From the NCBI RefSeq assembly GCF_001006045.1, contig NZ_CP011267.1:558001-622000 (forward strand): a stretch of DNA of 64,000 nt, in the 5' to 3' direction. Below are positions 15,990 to 22,643 of the stretch, in pieces (the stretch's first letter is position 1; every line of letters starts with the position of its first letter). The position numbers were made by a program, and so were the translations under genes. The notes below the pieces were generated by a model, which was not told the DNA's origin, did no database searches, and saw only the letters and a program-made list of their open reading frames with translations. This stretch comes from Geoglobus ahangari. Lineage in GTDB: Archaea > Halobacteriota > Archaeoglobi > Archaeoglobales > Archaeoglobaceae.

Positions 15990-17105
15990 CTACTCGTACC
16001 TCAAGGCCTCGATTGGCTCGAGGTTTGCCGCCCTCCACGCTGGATAGAGGCCGCTTATGACGGCTGTGAAGACGCCAAACAGGAACCCCTCGGCTGCAAA
16101 CACCGCCGTGGTCGCGGTGAGCATGGCGCCAACGTCCCCGACTATCAGCTTCGTTATCGCGTAACCCCCAGCGATGCTCAGAACCGCGCCGACAACGCTC
16201 CCCGCGACGCCAAGGATTGCCGCCTCGAGCAGGAATATTCTGAGTATCACCGACTTTCTCGCCCCTATTGCCCTCATTATCCCTATCTCCTTCGTTCTCT
16301 CTATCGTTGACATGAGCATTATGTTCAGGATGCTGACTCCAGCCACAAGCAGGGAGATTCCGGCTATCGCCATCAGGAACATGTTTATCTGGTTGAACAC
16401 CTCGTCTATCCTCTCGAGGATCGACCGCATCTCGAATATCTCCACCCTCTCGTCCTTCAGGTTCACGGTCGAGGAGACGAACTTCTTGAAGGGCTCTATG
16501 TCGTCAATGCTCGCCAGCTTGACTATAACCATCGAGTATTCCGCTGGGATGTCCCTTGACGACACTATGATGACGCCGTTCGGGTTTATGTCGAACCTCG
16601 CCCCCTCCCTCTCGAGTATCGCGGAAACCCTGTATATCCTCCCTCCCACCGAGATCTTGCTTCCCACCTTCACCTCAAGCTCCTGAGCGAGAGACCACCC
16701 AACCACGCATCTGCCGGACTTCAGCGATATCGTGCCCTTCTCCGCCTTGAACATCTCCCTTACAGCGTCCTCATCCATTCCGTAGACCGTGACTATCCTC
16801 TTGCTCCCCCTGAAGAGCACCTCCCCCGCGTCGGTCTTCACCGGGATGATATCTGCAGTGAACGGTGCCTTCCGTATTGTCTCCACAACCTTTTCGTCTA
16901 TGCTCTTGTACCCTTCCCTCGCGTTCGGAATCAGAATCAGCTCGTTCGCAACGTCTCCAAAACCCTCTATCACGCTCTTCTTCAGATTCTCCCCAAAGAT
17001 CCCGATGGAGGTTATGGCGGTGACTCCGATTATTATCCCGATCACCGCGAGAGCGCTCCTGACCCTCGCCCTTCCGAGGTTCCTAACTGCCAGCTGCAGA
17101 TACAT
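15990..17105 (-). CDS. ABC transporter permease, MacB/FtsX type
   Basis: This 371-aa protein has one N-terminal membrane helix (ALAVIGIIIGVTAITSIGIFGE), a large extracytoplasmic MacB-PCD-like domain (about 40-225) and three C-terminal helices forming the FtsX domain, ending GLYPAWRAANLEPIEALRYE, the family's hallmark. It forms an operon with the ATPase (23-bp overlap) and an exported protein upstream. Such MacB-like systems act as mechanotransmission exporters or envelope stress machines rather than classical importers; the substrate here is unknown. Confidence 0.9.
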   Translation of the reverse strand: MYLQLAVRNLGRARVRSALAVIGIIIGVTAITSIGIFGENLKKSVIEGFGDVANELILIPNAREGYKSIDEKVVETIRKAPFTADIIPVKTDAGEVLFRGSKRIVTVYGMDEDAVREMFKAEKGTISLKSGRCVVGWSLAQELEVKVGSKISVGGRIYRVSAILEREGARFDINPNGVIIVSSRDIPAEYSMVIVKLASIDDIEPFKKFVSSTVNLKDERVEIFEMRSILERIDEVFNQINMFLMAIAGISLLVAGVSILNIMLMSTIERTKEIGIMRAIGARKSVILRIFLLEAAILGVAGSVVGAVLSIAGGYAITKLIVGDVGAMLTATTAVFAAEGFLFGVFTAVISGLYPAWRAANLEPIEALRYE

Positions 17106-17769
17106 CCACTATCCTCCCGTCCCTAAGCCTGACGACCCTGTCAGCATAGCCTTTGAGTGACTCATCGTGGGTGACGAGTATGACCGTCACCCCCTCCTCA
17201 TTCAGCTTTCGCAGGATCTCCATTATCTGCCTCCCCGTCTTCGAGTCGAGGTTTCCTGTTGGCTCATCGCAGAGCAGAATCTCAGGATCGTTTGCGAGGG
17301 CTCTCGCTATCGCGACCCTCTGCTGCTGCCCGCCCGACATCTCGAATGGCTTTCTGTCGGCCACATCCTCAAGCCCCACGAGGCTCAGCAGCTTCTCGGC
17401 TTTCCTCTTCCTCTCCGCAGCAGGAGTCCCCCGGAAGATCATGGGGAGCTCAATGTTCTCCTCCGCGGAGAGGGTGGGGATCAGGTTGAACTGCTGGAAT
17501 ATAAATCCGATCGTCTCCCTCCTCAGGTCGGTGAGCTCGTTGTCGCTAAGCCCCGAAACGGCTACCCCGTTTATGTAGATCTCCCCCTCCGTGGGCTTGT
17601 CCAGGCAGCCGATCAGGTTAAGCATCGTGGACTTGCCGCTCCCGGAGGGGCCCATCACAGCGAGGAACTCCCCTTTCTCCACCTCGAGGTTTATCCGGTC
17701 TAATGCCCTCACCTCGTAGTACTTCGTCCGGTAAACCTTGCTGACGTTCTCAAAGACCACGACCGTCAT
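17083..17769 (-). CDS. ABC transporter ATP-binding protein, LolD/MacB type
   Basis: This 228-aa ATPase has Walker A GPSGSGKST (40-48), Q-loop FQQFNLIPTLSAEENIELP, signature MSGGQQQRVAIARAL and Walker B LLCDEPTGNLDSKTG followed by the H-loop VTHDESL. The LIPTLSAEENI and GNLDSKTG wording is typical of the MacB/LolD subfamily, matching the FtsX permease just downstream. It overlaps the upstream exported-protein gene by 4 bp and the permease by 23 bp, so the three are one transcription and translation unit. Confidence 0.93.
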   Translation of the reverse strand: MTVVVFENVSKVYRTKYYEVRALDRINLEVEKGEFLAVMGPSGSGKSTMLNLIGCLDKPTEGEIYINGVAVSGLSDNELTDLRRETIGFIFQQFNLIPTLSAEENIELPMIFRGTPAAERKRKAEKLLSLVGLEDVADRKPFEMSGGQQQRVAIARALANDPEILLCDEPTGNLDSKTGRQIMEILRKLNEEGVTVILVTHDESLKGYADRVVRLRDGRIVDVSAAGS

Positions 17770-19025
17770 CTTCTTCTCAGAGCGTAAATCGCAATCGCCA
17801 CGATCACAACAGCTATCGCCCCCGAGGCTATCAGAATCTCGCTTCCACCCTCTGCTGCTTTCACGGTAACCCTCTCCCCTTCGATCTCCTCCGAGATGCT
17901 GAGAACATCACCAGATGCTGCCTTCCACGAGATTATGAGGGTGCCGTTGCTCGAGTTGCCCTTTATCGAGAAGACCTCGTAGTCCTCCGGCATTATCGTC
18001 CCCACGAAGTACTTCCTGCCCTCAAAGCTCACGACGACATTCTTGACCTCGGTCGAGCCGAAGTTGCACACCTCACCGGTGAGCATGCCCTTGTCGAACT
18101 CGTAGCTGCACAGCTGAACCGCACTCGCGTTTATGATGCCTATCTCCCTGCTCTCCGACATGACGTGCTTTATCCCCATCTCGTCAAGGTAGCTGAGCTC
18201 CACCCTGAGTATCCGGGTCGCCATCACGTTAAAGTCGAACTTCCACGCCTCTCCCGGGTTAAGGACTGGAATCTTCTTCTCAGATTCGCCCACCCTCACC
18301 GTGACGGCGTAAGCCGGGGTGTTTCTGAGGTTGGCCACTCCGACTGAGACCTTGATGGCCTCGTTCTCGTAAGCGTTACGGTTCACCGTAACGTTCATGA
18401 CGACATCCTTCATCTCGTTCCACGTCACGTTCACCGCCCTGATGATCCTGTGAACGTTCTCCCCGTTCCTGAACTCCACCTCGAACCTCAGATCCTCCTT
18501 CTTTTTAGGATAGTAAACGAACTCGAACATCCTTCCGTACGCTTCAGATGGCGTTGCGTTGAACAGCGGCCTGACGGTGACGTTCTCCGGCCACTCCACC
18601 CTGACCCTCAGCACGTTCTTCTCGCCGAGCGTTACCTCAGGGTTCTCGACAGTCAGGACAGGGTAAGAGGAGGAGACGGTGAAGGGCATGTAGTATGTTA
18701 TCGAGCCGTTGTACGTCCTGACCCTGACCTCAACCACATACTTCCCCGGCTCTTCAGCTTTAAACGTGAAAGGGAGCCGGTATGACGTTTTTGCGGGAAG
18801 CACTCCAATGTCCGTGATGATTCTGGGAGTTACAAGGTCAGAGTAGAACACTATGCTGCGAATTGTCTCTGAATGAAGGTTGGGGTTCGTGATCACGAGG
18901 TAGCAGTCAACCTCGTCTCCGGGCAGGATTTTGCTGAGTCCCACCTCGTAGTCGAGCGTCACCTGTGCGCTCGCCAGTTGCAGGAGCAGGAGCGATCCGA
19001 TCAATAGGAAAAAAAGTTTTTTCAT
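17766..19025 (-). CDS. Exported, membrane-anchored Ig-like protein of the MacB-type operon
   Basis: 419 aa with a signal peptide (LFFLLIGSLLLLQLASAQ), a long series of beta-rich repeats similar to CARDB / COG1361 S-layer-related domains, and one C-terminal helix (IASGAIAVVIVAIAIYALRRR) leaving a short basic tail inside. Topology is therefore mostly outside the cell. As first gene of the operon with an ABC ATPase and FtsX permease, it is probably the extracellular partner of that system; this resembles archaeal COG1361-ABC clusters. Specific role unknown. Confidence 0.8.
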   Translation of the reverse strand: MKKLFFLLIGSLLLLQLASAQVTLDYEVGLSKILPGDEVDCYLVITNPNLHSETIRSIVFYSDLVTPRIITDIGVLPAKTSYRLPFTFKAEEPGKYVVEVRVRTYNGSITYYMPFTVSSSYPVLTVENPEVTLGEKNVLRVRVEWPENVTVRPLFNATPSEAYGRMFEFVYYPKKKEDLRFEVEFRNGENVHRIIRAVNVTWNEMKDVVMNVTVNRNAYENEAIKVSVGVANLRNTPAYAVTVRVGESEKKIPVLNPGEAWKFDFNVMATRILRVELSYLDEMGIKHVMSESREIGIINASAVQLCSYEFDKGMLTGEVCNFGSTEVKNVVVSFEGRKYFVGTIMPEDYEVFSIKGNSSNGTLIISWKAASGDVLSISEEIEGERVTVKAAEGGSEILIASGAIAVVIVAIAIYALRRR

Positions 19026-19453: not shown

Positions 19454-19602
19454 GAGCAATTCCGGCCGTGAAAGTAGTTAAAGGTTGTGAGGTCTGGCAT
19501 GTCACATGATGATGAGGCACGAGAGTGGTTTAACAGCGATAACGTAATTCTCCAGAGCCCTGATTTCGCCATAGGGATAGCAAATCCCTCCAACGAGAAA
19601 AG

Positions 19603-19610
19603 TTTATAAA
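19603..19610 (+). promoter_or_regulatory. TATA box of the cohesin/dockerin operon
   Basis: TTTATAAA preceded by a purine-rich BRE-like GAGAAAAG. Transcription should start about 25 bases downstream, near 19634, giving a short leader that contains the GAGGTG ribosome site at 19642-19647 before the GTG start at 19653. Confidence 0.6.
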
Positions 19611-19652
19611 TGTTCCAGAAAAGATTTACAAAATTGGAAAAGAGGTGCGAAT

Positions 19653-21515
19653 GTGGTCAAAAATTGGTTCGTAGGTTTAACTATTCTGGTTTTGATGATG
19701 GCAACAGCAGAAGCGGGAGAGTGGAATCTTGTACGGCTTACCGACAACACCTTCGACGACTACTTCCCAGTCCCCGGAATGTCGAGCGATGGGAGCAAGA
19801 TAGTGTTCTTATCAGACTCTGACGACAACAGTTACAGCTACTGGGACAGGGAGGTATATATAATGGATCTGGAGACCTTGGAAACGACAAGAGTGACCAA
19901 CAACATATACCGGGACTATCAGGCCGCTGTCTCCTCTGACGGCAGCAGTATAACATTTATAGAGTCCATACCCGTGAGCGACACAGATACAATCAAAAAG
20001 GTGTACGTTGTCAGCAAAGATGACGGATGGAGGCAGGGTGACCCGCTGGTTACCCTGACAGTGGATGGGGCATTCATACCATTCCTCAGCACAAGTGGAG
20101 AATACCTCATACTCTTCCAGCGTACAGGAAACGATTACGACAAGATCAAAACATACCGCACCGTCGACGGGAAACTGATGGGCACATACACCCTCACCTA
20201 CGGTCTCAGCGGATGGCCTTCCCAGTCATCCGACAAGTCAAAGTTCGTGTATGTGGAGAACGTCCCGTATGCAGGAGATCCGGGCAAGAAACGCCAGAGA
20301 GTGCATGTAGCCTTAACATCACCCCCATTCACGGACACAATAGTGTACCAAACAGCCAGCAGCACTGATGTTGAAGAAATCTCTTCTGGGCTACCTGCGG
20401 TGAGCAATGACGGGAAAGTTGTGTTTTATATGGAGTCCCGCCACCCAGCGGAGGGAGATGCCAAGAAGGGTGTGTTCATCGTGGATGATAAGGGGATAAG
20501 GCTGCTGACACCCACAAATGGCTCCGTAGCTGTGGGGATCAGTGGTGACGGATCAAAGGTTTTCTACATGGAAAGAGGCAAGATTTACAAAATCAACTCG
20601 GATGGAAGCGGAAAGGAGCTGGTGGCAACCATGAGTGATGTGTTCGGGTTCGGAAATCTCGCTGTGAACGATGACGGCAGCAGGGTCGTCTTTTTGACCT
20701 TGCAGGCCAGCGAAGATGATTATGAGATATACATGCTCTCGAGGGAGCCTGCAAAGGCCATACCCAAAATTAAGATAGACCTCCTCCCGGCGTTCCCCTC
20801 AACGACGAGCGTTGTTGTGGGATCTGCAAAGGCCACTCACGGCGATACTGTTCAGATTCCGGTGGAGATCAGGAACGCCGACAAGATCGGTAGCATGGAC
20901 ATAGCGCTTGCATATCCGTCTCAAGTCCTCCAGTTTATCGACGTCATTCCGGGATCACTGACACAGAACTCCCTGCTCGAGCACAACGTGGAGGATGGAA
21001 GGATACGGGTGGGTATCGTCGAGACCAACGGGATAAGCGGCGATGGTTCTCTCTTCTACATGAGGTTCAGAGTTACCGGAGAACCAAAGCAGGAGAACAT
21101 GGGAAACGTCATGGGAATGGACACCGGAATAGTTGGAAGGATTTATCCAGACATGACGGAGTATTTCGGTAAAAGCGGGTACAGCCTCGTTCTCGAGGAG
21201 TTTTCAGTGTACGACACGGACGGCTCCAAGATTAACGCCATCGGAATAAACGGCACGTTCAGCCTTGTGAGCGAGGAAGAGATGAACAGGGGAGACGTGA
21301 ATGGAGACGGGAAGATAACGAGCGTCGACGCGCTTATGGCGCTGCAAATGGCCGTGGGTAAGCTCGAGGCCAGAGGCGTGGCAGACATGGACGAGGACGG
21401 AAAGGTGACATCCAAGGACGCAATGGAGATCATGAAGGTTGCGAACCAGAGGATGATTGAGTTCGCCCAGAAGTACATGCAACAGGGGGGCAAGATCCCC
21501 TCGATCGGTAAGTGA
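19653..21515 (+). CDS. Exported TolB-like propeller protein with cohesin and dockerin domains
   Basis: 620 aa. A signal peptide (VGLTILVLMMATAEA) leads into a WD40-like/TolB propeller with repeated DGSKIVF, DGSSITF, DGKVVFY, DGSKVFY and DGSRVVF blades (about 24-370). A cohesin-like domain follows (about 388-480; GDTVQIPVEIRNADKIGSMDIAL), then a dockerin from 546 with calcium loops DVNGDGKITSVD and DMDEDGKVTSKD. The GTG at 19653 has GAGGTG five bases before it. It is followed 10 bp later by a cohesin protein and then by a dockerin protein. Cohesin-dockerin binding is known from cellulosomes; similar genes exist in A. fulgidus. Confidence 0.88.
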   Translation: MVKNWFVGLTILVLMMATAEAGEWNLVRLTDNTFDDYFPVPGMSSDGSKIVFLSDSDDNSYSYWDREVYIMDLETLETTRVTNNIYRDYQAAVSSDGSSITFIESIPVSDTDTIKKVYVVSKDDGWRQGDPLVTLTVDGAFIPFLSTSGEYLILFQRTGNDYDKIKTYRTVDGKLMGTYTLTYGLSGWPSQSSDKSKFVYVENVPYAGDPGKKRQRVHVALTSPPFTDTIVYQTASSTDVEEISSGLPAVSNDGKVVFYMESRHPAEGDAKKGVFIVDDKGIRLLTPTNGSVAVGISGDGSKVFYMERGKIYKINSDGSGKELVATMSDVFGFGNLAVNDDGSRVVFLTLQASEDDYEIYMLSREPAKAIPKIKIDLLPAFPSTTSVVVGSAKATHGDTVQIPVEIRNADKIGSMDIALAYPSQVLQFIDVIPGSLTQNSLLEHNVEDGRIRVGIVETNGISGDGSLFYMRFRVTGEPKQENMGNVMGMDTGIVGRIYPDMTEYFGKSGYSLVLEEFSVYDTDGSKINAIGINGTFSLVSEEEMNRGDVNGDGKITSVDALMALQMAVGKLEARGVADMDEDGKVTSKDAMEIMKVANQRMIEFAQKYMQQGGKIPSIGK

Positions 21516-21525
21516 GGTGGTTTGA

Positions 21526-22062
21526 ATGATTAAGGTTGTGCTTTCCCTGCTACTGCTCGCATTTGCCGTCGGCACGGCATCTGCAGAGCTGAGCGTAAAG
21601 GTTCCCGACGTCAGCTGCGGTGTTGGAGAGGATGTGAACGTTCCCGTGGTTGTGGAGAACGCCCAGAATCTCGGAAGCATGGACATCGTCATCTCCTTCG
21701 ACCCTGAGGTTGTGAAGGTCAAGAGCGTTGGCAAGGGTGAGCTGAACAAAGGCATCCTCACGTCCAACGTGGGAGATGGCGTTGTGGCTATCAGCTTTGC
21801 CGACTCCAAGGGCATTGACGGAGACGGAGAGGTGGCAGTCATAAGCTTCGAGGCCCTCAAACAGGGAACAAGCGAGCTGAAGTTCGAAAGCGTGCAGGCC
21901 TACGATGTGGAAACCCACGTGGACATAAAGGTCACGTCCCAGAACGGAAAGATAACCGTGGAGGAGAGCAGCAAAGAGAAAGAATCCTCTCCGGGATTCG
22001 AGATCGTTATTGGGGCCGTGGCCCTGCTGGGCAGCCTCGCCCTGAGGAGGAGGTTGAATTGA
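21526..22062 (+). CDS. Cohesin-domain surface protein with PGF-CTERM anchor
   Basis: 178 aa: signal peptide (LLLLAFAVGTASA), one cohesin domain (about 22-150, with GEDVNVPVVVENAQNLGSMDIVISF and GDGEVAVISFEAL), a short charged linker and a C-terminal tripartite tail: PGF motif in SSPGFEIVIG, hydrophobic helix, RRR. That tail matches PGF-CTERM, the archaeosortase A processing signal, so the protein is probably lipid-anchored outside the cell and presents its cohesin as a docking site. ATG at 21526 after GAGGTGG. Overlaps the next gene by 4 bp. Confidence 0.88.
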   Translation: MIKVVLSLLLLAFAVGTASAELSVKVPDVSCGVGEDVNVPVVVENAQNLGSMDIVISFDPEVVKVKSVGKGELNKGILTSNVGDGVVAISFADSKGIDGDGEVAVISFEALKQGTSELKFESVQAYDVETHVDIKVTSQNGKITVEESSKEKESSPGFEIVIGAVALLGSLALRRRLN

Positions 22063-22643
22063 GGGGCAAGCTGGTCTCCCTAATTTTTTTAGTAGCCATT
22101 CTGTCAGCCACGTCCACCGCGGAGAAGCTAAGGGGAGATGTGAACGGAGATGGAAAGGTCACAAGCGTGGATGCGCTTATGGCTCTTCAGATGGCAGTTG
22201 GTAAGCTTCCGGAAGATGTCAGGGCAGACGTTACCGGAGACGGGACGGTCACTGCAGTGGACGCGTTCAGAATTCTTCAGTTCGCGGTTGGAGACCAGGA
22301 GGAACTCGTCTCGGAGATGTACGGAGTGATCTCGGGAATAGACGTTGGAAAGGTTGTGAAGGACGAGAGGATGAACTGGTACATCACAAAGGATGATGGC
22401 TCCGTCGTTGCCGTGAGCGTAGTCATAAGCGGTGGCACGGTTAAGGACTTCAGGAGGGGCGAGCTTCCGGATCCGACGATGAGGGTGTACACGAGCGAGG
22501 ATGTCGTTAGGGAGCTCCTGAAAACGAGAGATCCCGAGGTGCTCAAGAGAGACATCGGCAGCGGTAAGATCAGACTCGGAGGGGTGGGGTTCGCCAGCAA
22601 GATCAAGGCGGGAATTGCCTCATTCCTGACAAAGTTCACATGA
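22059..22643 (+). CDS. Exported dockerin-domain protein
   Basis: 194 aa with a signal peptide (SLIFLVAILSATSTA), a complete two-repeat dockerin (about 24-85: DVNGDGKVTSVDALMAL and DVTGDGTVTAVDAFRIL) and an unrecognised C-terminal domain of about 100 residues. The first dockerin repeat is nearly identical to that of the propeller protein two genes upstream. Start is TTG at 22059 within the ATTGA overlap with the cohesin gene. It should bind the anchored cohesin next door. No catalytic domain is evident. Confidence 0.85.
   Translation: MRGKLVSLIFLVAILSATSTAEKLRGDVNGDGKVTSVDALMALQMAVGKLPEDVRADVTGDGTVTAVDAFRILQFAVGDQEELVSEMYGVISGIDVGKVVKDERMNWYITKDDGSVVAVSVVISGGTVKDFRRGELPDPTMRVYTSEDVVRELLKTRDPEVLKRDIGSGKIRLGGVGFASKIKAGIASFLTKFT

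Follow-up and report, generated by a model that had tools for sequence, protein, structure and literature searches.

Archaeal cohesins and dockerins have, to our knowledge, been called an enigmatic vestige since 1999, with no cargo known for them. Three neighbouring genes of the thermophilic, iron-respiring archaeon Geoglobus ahangari 234T that encode such domains raise the question of whether they form a working assembly and, if so, what it carries. The window analysed here is a stretch of 64,000 nucleotides (contig NZ_CP011267.1, positions 558,001 to 622,000), and coordinates refer to it unless another locus is named. That cohesin and dockerin genes occur in the Archaeoglobales is already known; what is new is the SCP2-like fold predicted for part of the third protein, the recurrence of a compact cassette with a swapped propeller, and a remnant of gene 3 in Archaeoglobus fulgidus. 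With a probability of roughly one half, we read genes 1-3 as encoding a minimal lipid-anchored cohesin-dockerin surface assembly, linked by an adaptor, that presents an SCP2-like, putatively lipid-binding subunit.

Domains of the three proteins

The list of open reading frames places three consecutive genes exactly where a sequence-only reading of this DNA had put them, in a cluster described as having overlaps or 10-bp gaps (Table 1). Genes 1 and 2 are separated by a 10-bp gap, while genes 2 and 3 overlap by 4 bp, the TTG start of gene 3 overlapping the gene 2 stop. The N-termini of all three proteins are signal-peptide-like. The Pfam matches to Cohesin, Dockerin_1, PD40 and PGF-CTERM all exceed the curated cut-offs and are therefore not chance. 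A BRE/TATA-like box and a GAGGTG motif ahead of gene 1 may be its promoter and ribosome-binding site. Immediately upstream of the cassette and divergent from it, a MacAB-like row of genes on the minus strand (15990-19025) encodes an FtsX-like permease, an ABC ATPase and a membrane-anchored protein whose match to CARDB falls short of the threshold.

Table 1. Coordinates of the three genes, their domains and the candidate upstream signals in the window.
Feature	Position	Strand	Description	Evidence
Candidate archaeal promoter	19597-19610	+	BRE/TATA-like, GAAAAGTTTATAAA, ~43 bp upstream of gene 1	Read from sequence
Candidate ribosome-binding site, gene 1	19642-19647	+	GAGGTG	Read from sequence
Gene 1	19653-21515	+	620 aa, GTG start; secreted propeller + cohesin + dockerin	ORFs, Pfam, orthologue alignment
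Beta-propeller, gene 1	19719-20741	+	7-bladed, PD40/TolB-like repeats	Pfam PD40 2.2e-5, AlphaFold2 model, VIA
Cohesin, gene 1	20805-21287	+		Pfam Cohesin 1.3e-13; phmmer vs PDB 2xdh
Dockerin, gene 1	21291-21437	+	DVNGDGKITSVD + DMDEDGKVTSKD loops, both canonical	Pfam Dockerin_1 1.8e-9
Gene 2	21526-22062	+	178 aa; signal peptide + one cohesin + PGF-CTERM anchor	ORFs, Pfam
Cohesin, gene 2	21592-21960	+		Pfam Cohesin 6.2e-18
Archaeosortase signal, gene 2	21991-22053	+	PGF-CTERM: SPGFE + hydrophobic helix + RRR	Pfam PF18204 8.9e-6, over cut-off
Gene 3	22059-22643	+	194 aa, TTG start; signal peptide + dockerin + SCP2-like domain	ORFs, Pfam
Dockerin, gene 3	22134-22271	+	DVNGDGKVTSVD + DVTGDGTVTAVD loops; Thr at position 3 of second loop	Pfam Dockerin_1 3.4e-12
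SCP2-like domain, gene 3	22299-22640	+	No Pfam family	AlphaFold2 model, Foldseek, VIA, profile-profile match

The propeller of gene 1 has seven repeats when counted by eye, and residues 20-363 of an AlphaFold2 model, built from a shallow alignment and of low confidence in its dockerin part, match 7-bladed propellers with VIA Z scores of 22-23. Residues 385-545 match PDB 2xdh, which we take to be an A. fulgidus cohesin (phmmer E 4.3e-42), with a low-confidence insertion at residues 478-508. Carrying both a dockerin and a cohesin of its own, the protein is most likely a bifunctional adaptor. In bacterial adaptor scaffoldins such as ScaB of Acetivibrio cellulolyticus, a protein with dockerin and cohesin links the anchor to a dockerin-bearing subunit. 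Gene 1 combines the same two domains in one protein, but has a single cohesin, includes a propeller in the chain and lacks any cellulase or carbohydrate-binding module.

At the C-terminus of gene 2 a PGF motif, a transmembrane helix and a basic tail are all present, the score against TIGR04126 being 20.0 bits, under the cut-off of 24.5. The G. ahangari genome encodes archaeosortase A (ArtA; TIGR04125, E 6.7e-70), and only four PGF-CTERM proteins were found in it, gene 2 among them. Together these findings support a predicted lipid anchoring of the gene 2 protein at the cell surface.

Both dockerins consist of two calcium-loop/helix repeats, as expected for the partner of a cohesin in a type I-like pair, and their calcium positions are canonical except for the one Thr that replaces Asp/Asn in gene 3. 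The near-identity of their first calcium loops, already remarked on in the sequence-only reading, extends through the following helix: this stretch reads GDVNGDGK[I/V]TSVDALMALQMAVGKL, with a single residue different. Over the 27 residues compared, 13 of the 23 identical ones are written with different codons, which points to constraint on the protein instead of a fresh copy; on this ground gene conversion was rejected as the source of the match in this genome. In one other genome (G028) the two dockerins are identical at 78 of 81 bases, and gene conversion or recent copying there is possible. Loops so alike would be consistent with recognition of one common cohesin surface.

A whole-genome search with Pfam models found two cohesins, those of genes 1 and 2, and two dockerins, those of genes 1 and 3; for dockerins the search ran up to E=1, and it answers the question, raised earlier, of whether more lie elsewhere in the genome. 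With only these four domains genome-wide, the system is closed and no dockerin is borne by an enzyme. The same search found no scaffoldin with several cohesins in the genome, only the two single-cohesin proteins, and no dockerin on a glycoside hydrolase or beside a carbohydrate-binding module, since both dockerins sit on non-enzymes. As the earlier reading had stated, no glycosidase domain was matched within the three genes (Pfam, NCBIfam), barring NCBIfam CelK matches far under cut-off that fall on the dockerin alone. A reduced cellulosome-like complex for degrading polysaccharides is suggested by the homology of these domains to cellulosomal ones, yet we consider it very improbable: no catalytic or carbohydrate-binding domain was matched in the cassette members scanned, and the genome holds no further dockerin to carry an enzyme.

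The C-terminal domain of gene 3

Gene 3 had been described simply as a dockerin protein. The dockerin is there, but the description overlooked some 110 C-terminal residues, for which a scan of gene 3 alone returned no Pfam or NCBIfam match. An SCP2 fold was suspected from the sequence ahead of any structure search, and weak Pfam matches to Alkyl_sulf_C, a family of SCP2 fold, pointed in that direction too. Sequence-profile matches to PDB entries (TorS and factor X among them) were at chance level and uninformative.

An AlphaFold2 model of gene 3, made from a 3-sequence alignment, has block means of mostly 64-79 pLDDT across this domain and low confidence in the dockerin. With moderate confidence, it predicts the element order beta-beta-beta-beta-alpha-alpha-beta-alpha. 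When the domain was compared with the PDB by Foldseek, the top 19 matches were all of the sterol-carrier/SCP2 type, the best being A. fulgidus AF1534 (E 7e-6). VIA gave a Z of 10.5 against Aedes SCP2-like-2 (3.3 Å over 107 residues) and of 10.0 against AF1534. Profile-profile alignment with 18 archaeal SCP2 sequences gave E 6.5e-4 and a probability of 28%, compared with E 0.17 and 0.4% for a cohesin control. The Pfam SCP2 model matched one of 23 relatives of the domain, at a non-significant E of 0.023. Structure comparison and profile-profile alignment are thus the sole grounds on which we call the domain SCP2-like; the assignment of the predicted fold is good, while homology to SCP2 is weakly suggested by sequence taken by itself.

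The predicted fold and element order are shared with the SCP2/sterol carrier proteins (A. fulgidus AF1534, PDB 3bn8/3cnu; the C-terminal domain of SdsA1). Gene 3 differs from these in being a secreted protein with a dockerin attached, and the Pfam SCP2 model does not pick it up; the archaeal SCP2 proteins collected for comparison have neither signal peptide nor dockerin. A literature search found no paper combining a dockerin with SCP2. Proteins of the SCP2 fold characteristically contain a hydrophobic cavity, and it is from the fold only that a lipid role for gene 3 is suggested.

Of 392 genomes sampled from the phylum, 132 contain relatives of the domain, mostly as proteins of ~160 residues; those inspected have a signal-peptide-like N-terminus and lack a dockerin. 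The only fusions to a dockerin observed were those in Archaeoglobi and in one metagenome-assembled contig labelled Thermoplasmata (L006). The secreted SCP2-like domain thus represents a widely distributed family that goes unrecognised by Pfam. Many Halobacteriota distant from Archaeoglobi have it with no dockerin attached, so that a use for fatty acids specifically is doubtful.

The family also turns up in other settings. A second member in G. ahangari lies outside the window (G000:C1:335475-335768, locus L106), forming the C-terminal part of a large protein that matches Peptidase C13 (legumain-like); this protein is conserved in other Geoglobus (L099, L100). At L076:4657-7293 the domain is N-terminal in an 878-residue protein with a segment that looks transglutaminase-like by eye, and the gene is convergent with the dockerin-SCP2-like cassette of the same contig.

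The cassette in other archaea and in A. fulgidus

The order of propeller/cohesin/dockerin, anchored cohesin and dockerin/SCP2-like protein recurs in at least six other archaeal genomes (G002, G028, G051, G053, G009 and L006), always compactly, with gaps or overlaps up to ~22 bp; in G009 gene 1 runs off the contig, and locus L005 is the same contig as G051. L006 carries a double cassette as a run of five genes (L006:81-6417), in which an adaptor with a PD40-type propeller, an anchor, an adaptor with an FG-GAP propeller and a second anchor are followed by a single dockerin-SCP2-like gene. The adaptors of G051 and G053 have FG-GAP repeats in place of PD40. A further variant comes from G030, a metagenome-assembled genome that is 9% contaminated: its gene 1 pairs BNR repeats with a dockerin and lacks the cohesin, and the tail of its anchor protein, judged by eye, is of CGP type instead of PGF type. 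The propeller is therefore exchanged among cassettes (PD40, FG-GAP, BNR), and the dockerin-SCP2-like protein is constant in the intact ones. The gene 1 cohesin is kept in G000, G001, G002, G009 (C84), G013, G028, G051, G053 and both copies of L006.

Exchange of the propeller, as happens in adhesins, and the accessory-like presence of the domain on a C13-type peptidase would fit a mainly propeller-based structure for adhesion or sensing, associated with the S-layer, in which the SCP2-like domain is a ligand-free structural or protein-binding spacer. We think this unlikely, as it is the SCP2-like subunit that stays constant while the propeller varies, and the fold family is one with a hydrophobic cavity.

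No two of the genomes compared share the genes that flank the cassette (NAD kinase, Ftr/ammonium transporter, nitroreductase/acetyl-CoA hydrolase, TPR), and the idea that neighbouring genes fix its role was rejected because they are unrelated between genomes. Between G051 and G053, dN/dS is 0.19 for gene 1 and 0.10 for gene 3, indicating purifying selection on both; gene 2 differs at too few sites for a verdict. In several genomes the proteins of the intact cassette share 36-60% identity and keep their calcium residues.

Genes 1 and 2 have their A. fulgidus orthologues in ORF2375 and ORF2376, which lie in the same order (Bayer 1999; Voronov-Goldman 2011; PDB 2xdh), the gene 2 proteins being 53% identical. 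The dockerin of ORF2375 and the cohesin of ORF2376 formed the strongest and most specific pair in an all-against-all comparison (PMC9705933), and the pair serves as a biotechnology tool (PMC9705933; PMC6394049); the binding assay proposed in the sequence-only reading therefore already exists in part, for these tightly pairing orthologues (PMC9705933). Two differences from G. ahangari stand out. Gene 1, intact in G. ahangari, is split by a frameshift in A. fulgidus, which is why the published ORF2375 (L067:7281-9240, strain DSM 4304) lacks the signal peptide and first propeller blades; these lie in an overlapping upstream frame. The split may be genuine or may stem from a sequencing error. The other difference is that DSM 4304 has no gene 3 counterpart beside the cluster. 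A displaced open frame at ~32.7 kb (G001:C1; L094, around 1350-1830) nevertheless encodes a hydrophobic N-terminus, the second half only of a dockerin, missing the first calcium ligands, and a complete SCP2-like domain that groups with that of G. ahangari gene 3 in a domain tree (support 0.95). This displaced, truncated copy explains the missing second dockerin, and hence why just one dockerin is known there. That single dockerin was reportedly bound, in a study of 2011, by both A. fulgidus cohesins. It appears that A. fulgidus, the reference organism, holds a damaged version and Geoglobus the intact one.

Damage of this kind, a broken gene 3 in G050 and the absence of cohesins from 46 of 59 genomes of the class are what would be expected if a formerly larger cohesin-dockerin system were decaying in the Archaeoglobales and the cassette were what is left of it. 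The low dN/dS, the intact and diverged copies with their calcium residues kept, and a compact order preserved amid unrelated neighbourhoods make such a vestige quite unlikely. Although it has been lost repeatedly, the cassette has the appearance of a functional unit that is conserved, not of a leftover.

A proposed surface assembly

Gene 2 offers a cohesin only, gene 1 a dockerin and a cohesin, and gene 3 a dockerin only. The sequence-only reading had inferred an extracellular assembly in which the anchored protein holds the other two. An anchored, extracellular assembly agrees with the signal-peptide-like N-termini, ArtA, the calcium positions and the binding of the A. fulgidus pair (PMC9705933). 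The arrangement, though, has to be revised: with a single cohesin, gene 2 can take one dockerin at a time and cannot hold both partners simultaneously, and the cohesin of gene 1 is required.

The analysis itself shows the domains, their gene order and conservation, the predicted fold of the gene 3 domain and the presence of ArtA; binding partners in G. ahangari, chain formation, ligand and physiological role are all points that we infer. After secretion, archaeosortase A would exchange the C-terminus of gene 2 for a membrane lipid, and a single cohesin would then face outwards from the membrane. The dockerin of gene 1 would plug into this cohesin, and the gene 1 cohesin would stay free beside the propeller. 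Gene 3 would be the terminal subunit, its dockerin entering the cohesin of gene 1 (or gene 2) and bringing a putative hydrophobic-ligand-binding domain to the cell surface. Adaptors might also dock onto one another, with gene 3 capping the chain. We advance tentatively, as a rather doubtful extension, a head-to-tail surface polymer that an anchored cohesin starts, propeller adaptors extend and the dockerin-SCP2-like protein caps, giving a fibre or scaffold under calcium control on which hydrophobic substrates are captured. Were it true, it would amount to modular capture of hydrophobic substrates outside an archaeal membrane, with the propeller swapped between lineages.

A simpler arrangement dispenses with the adaptor chain: the gene 2 cohesin would hold gene 1 or gene 3 independently, and the gene 1 cohesin would dock intramolecularly or go unused. 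The strongest Pfam cohesin match is that of gene 2, the published tight pair is ORF2376 cohesin with ORF2375 dockerin (PMC9705933), and the G030 gene 1 has done without a cohesin. Elsewhere the gene 1 cohesin is kept across genomes despite the exchange of propellers, which argues that it is in use, and we regard the simpler arrangement as possible but on the doubtful side.

For the adaptor-linked assembly, the most likely job would be that of a lipid- or fatty-acid-binding protein held between membrane and S-layer, where hydrophobic compounds would be taken up or handled. Long-chain fatty acids are plausible ligands, since G. ahangari oxidises them (PMC4600277). They are one option only, the domain being common elsewhere in the phylum, and given the breadth of the family a membrane lipid, quinone or polyprenol is equally possible. 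Against a necessary role stands A. fulgidus, which keeps genes 1 and 2 with gene 1 frameshifted and gene 3 truncated, so that this species may be able to do without the system. The conserved pairing of an SCP2-like domain with a dockerin in the cassette puts forward a specific cargo and a function open to experiment, surface lipid binding, as the fold suggests.

The dockerin and cohesin proteins of ANME archaea are likewise archaeal, non-cellulosomal and surface-associated (PMC9012536). They include scaffoldin-like proteins with multiple cohesins, and their dockerins are found on ABC-transporter binding proteins or S-layer domains (PMC9012536), whereas the G. ahangari cassette has single cohesins, a propeller and an SCP2-like cargo. 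Within the Archaeoglobaceae, one genome (G032, loci L080-L082) encodes several larger cohesin/dockerin proteins in a different organisation, with open frames of up to 1694 residues.
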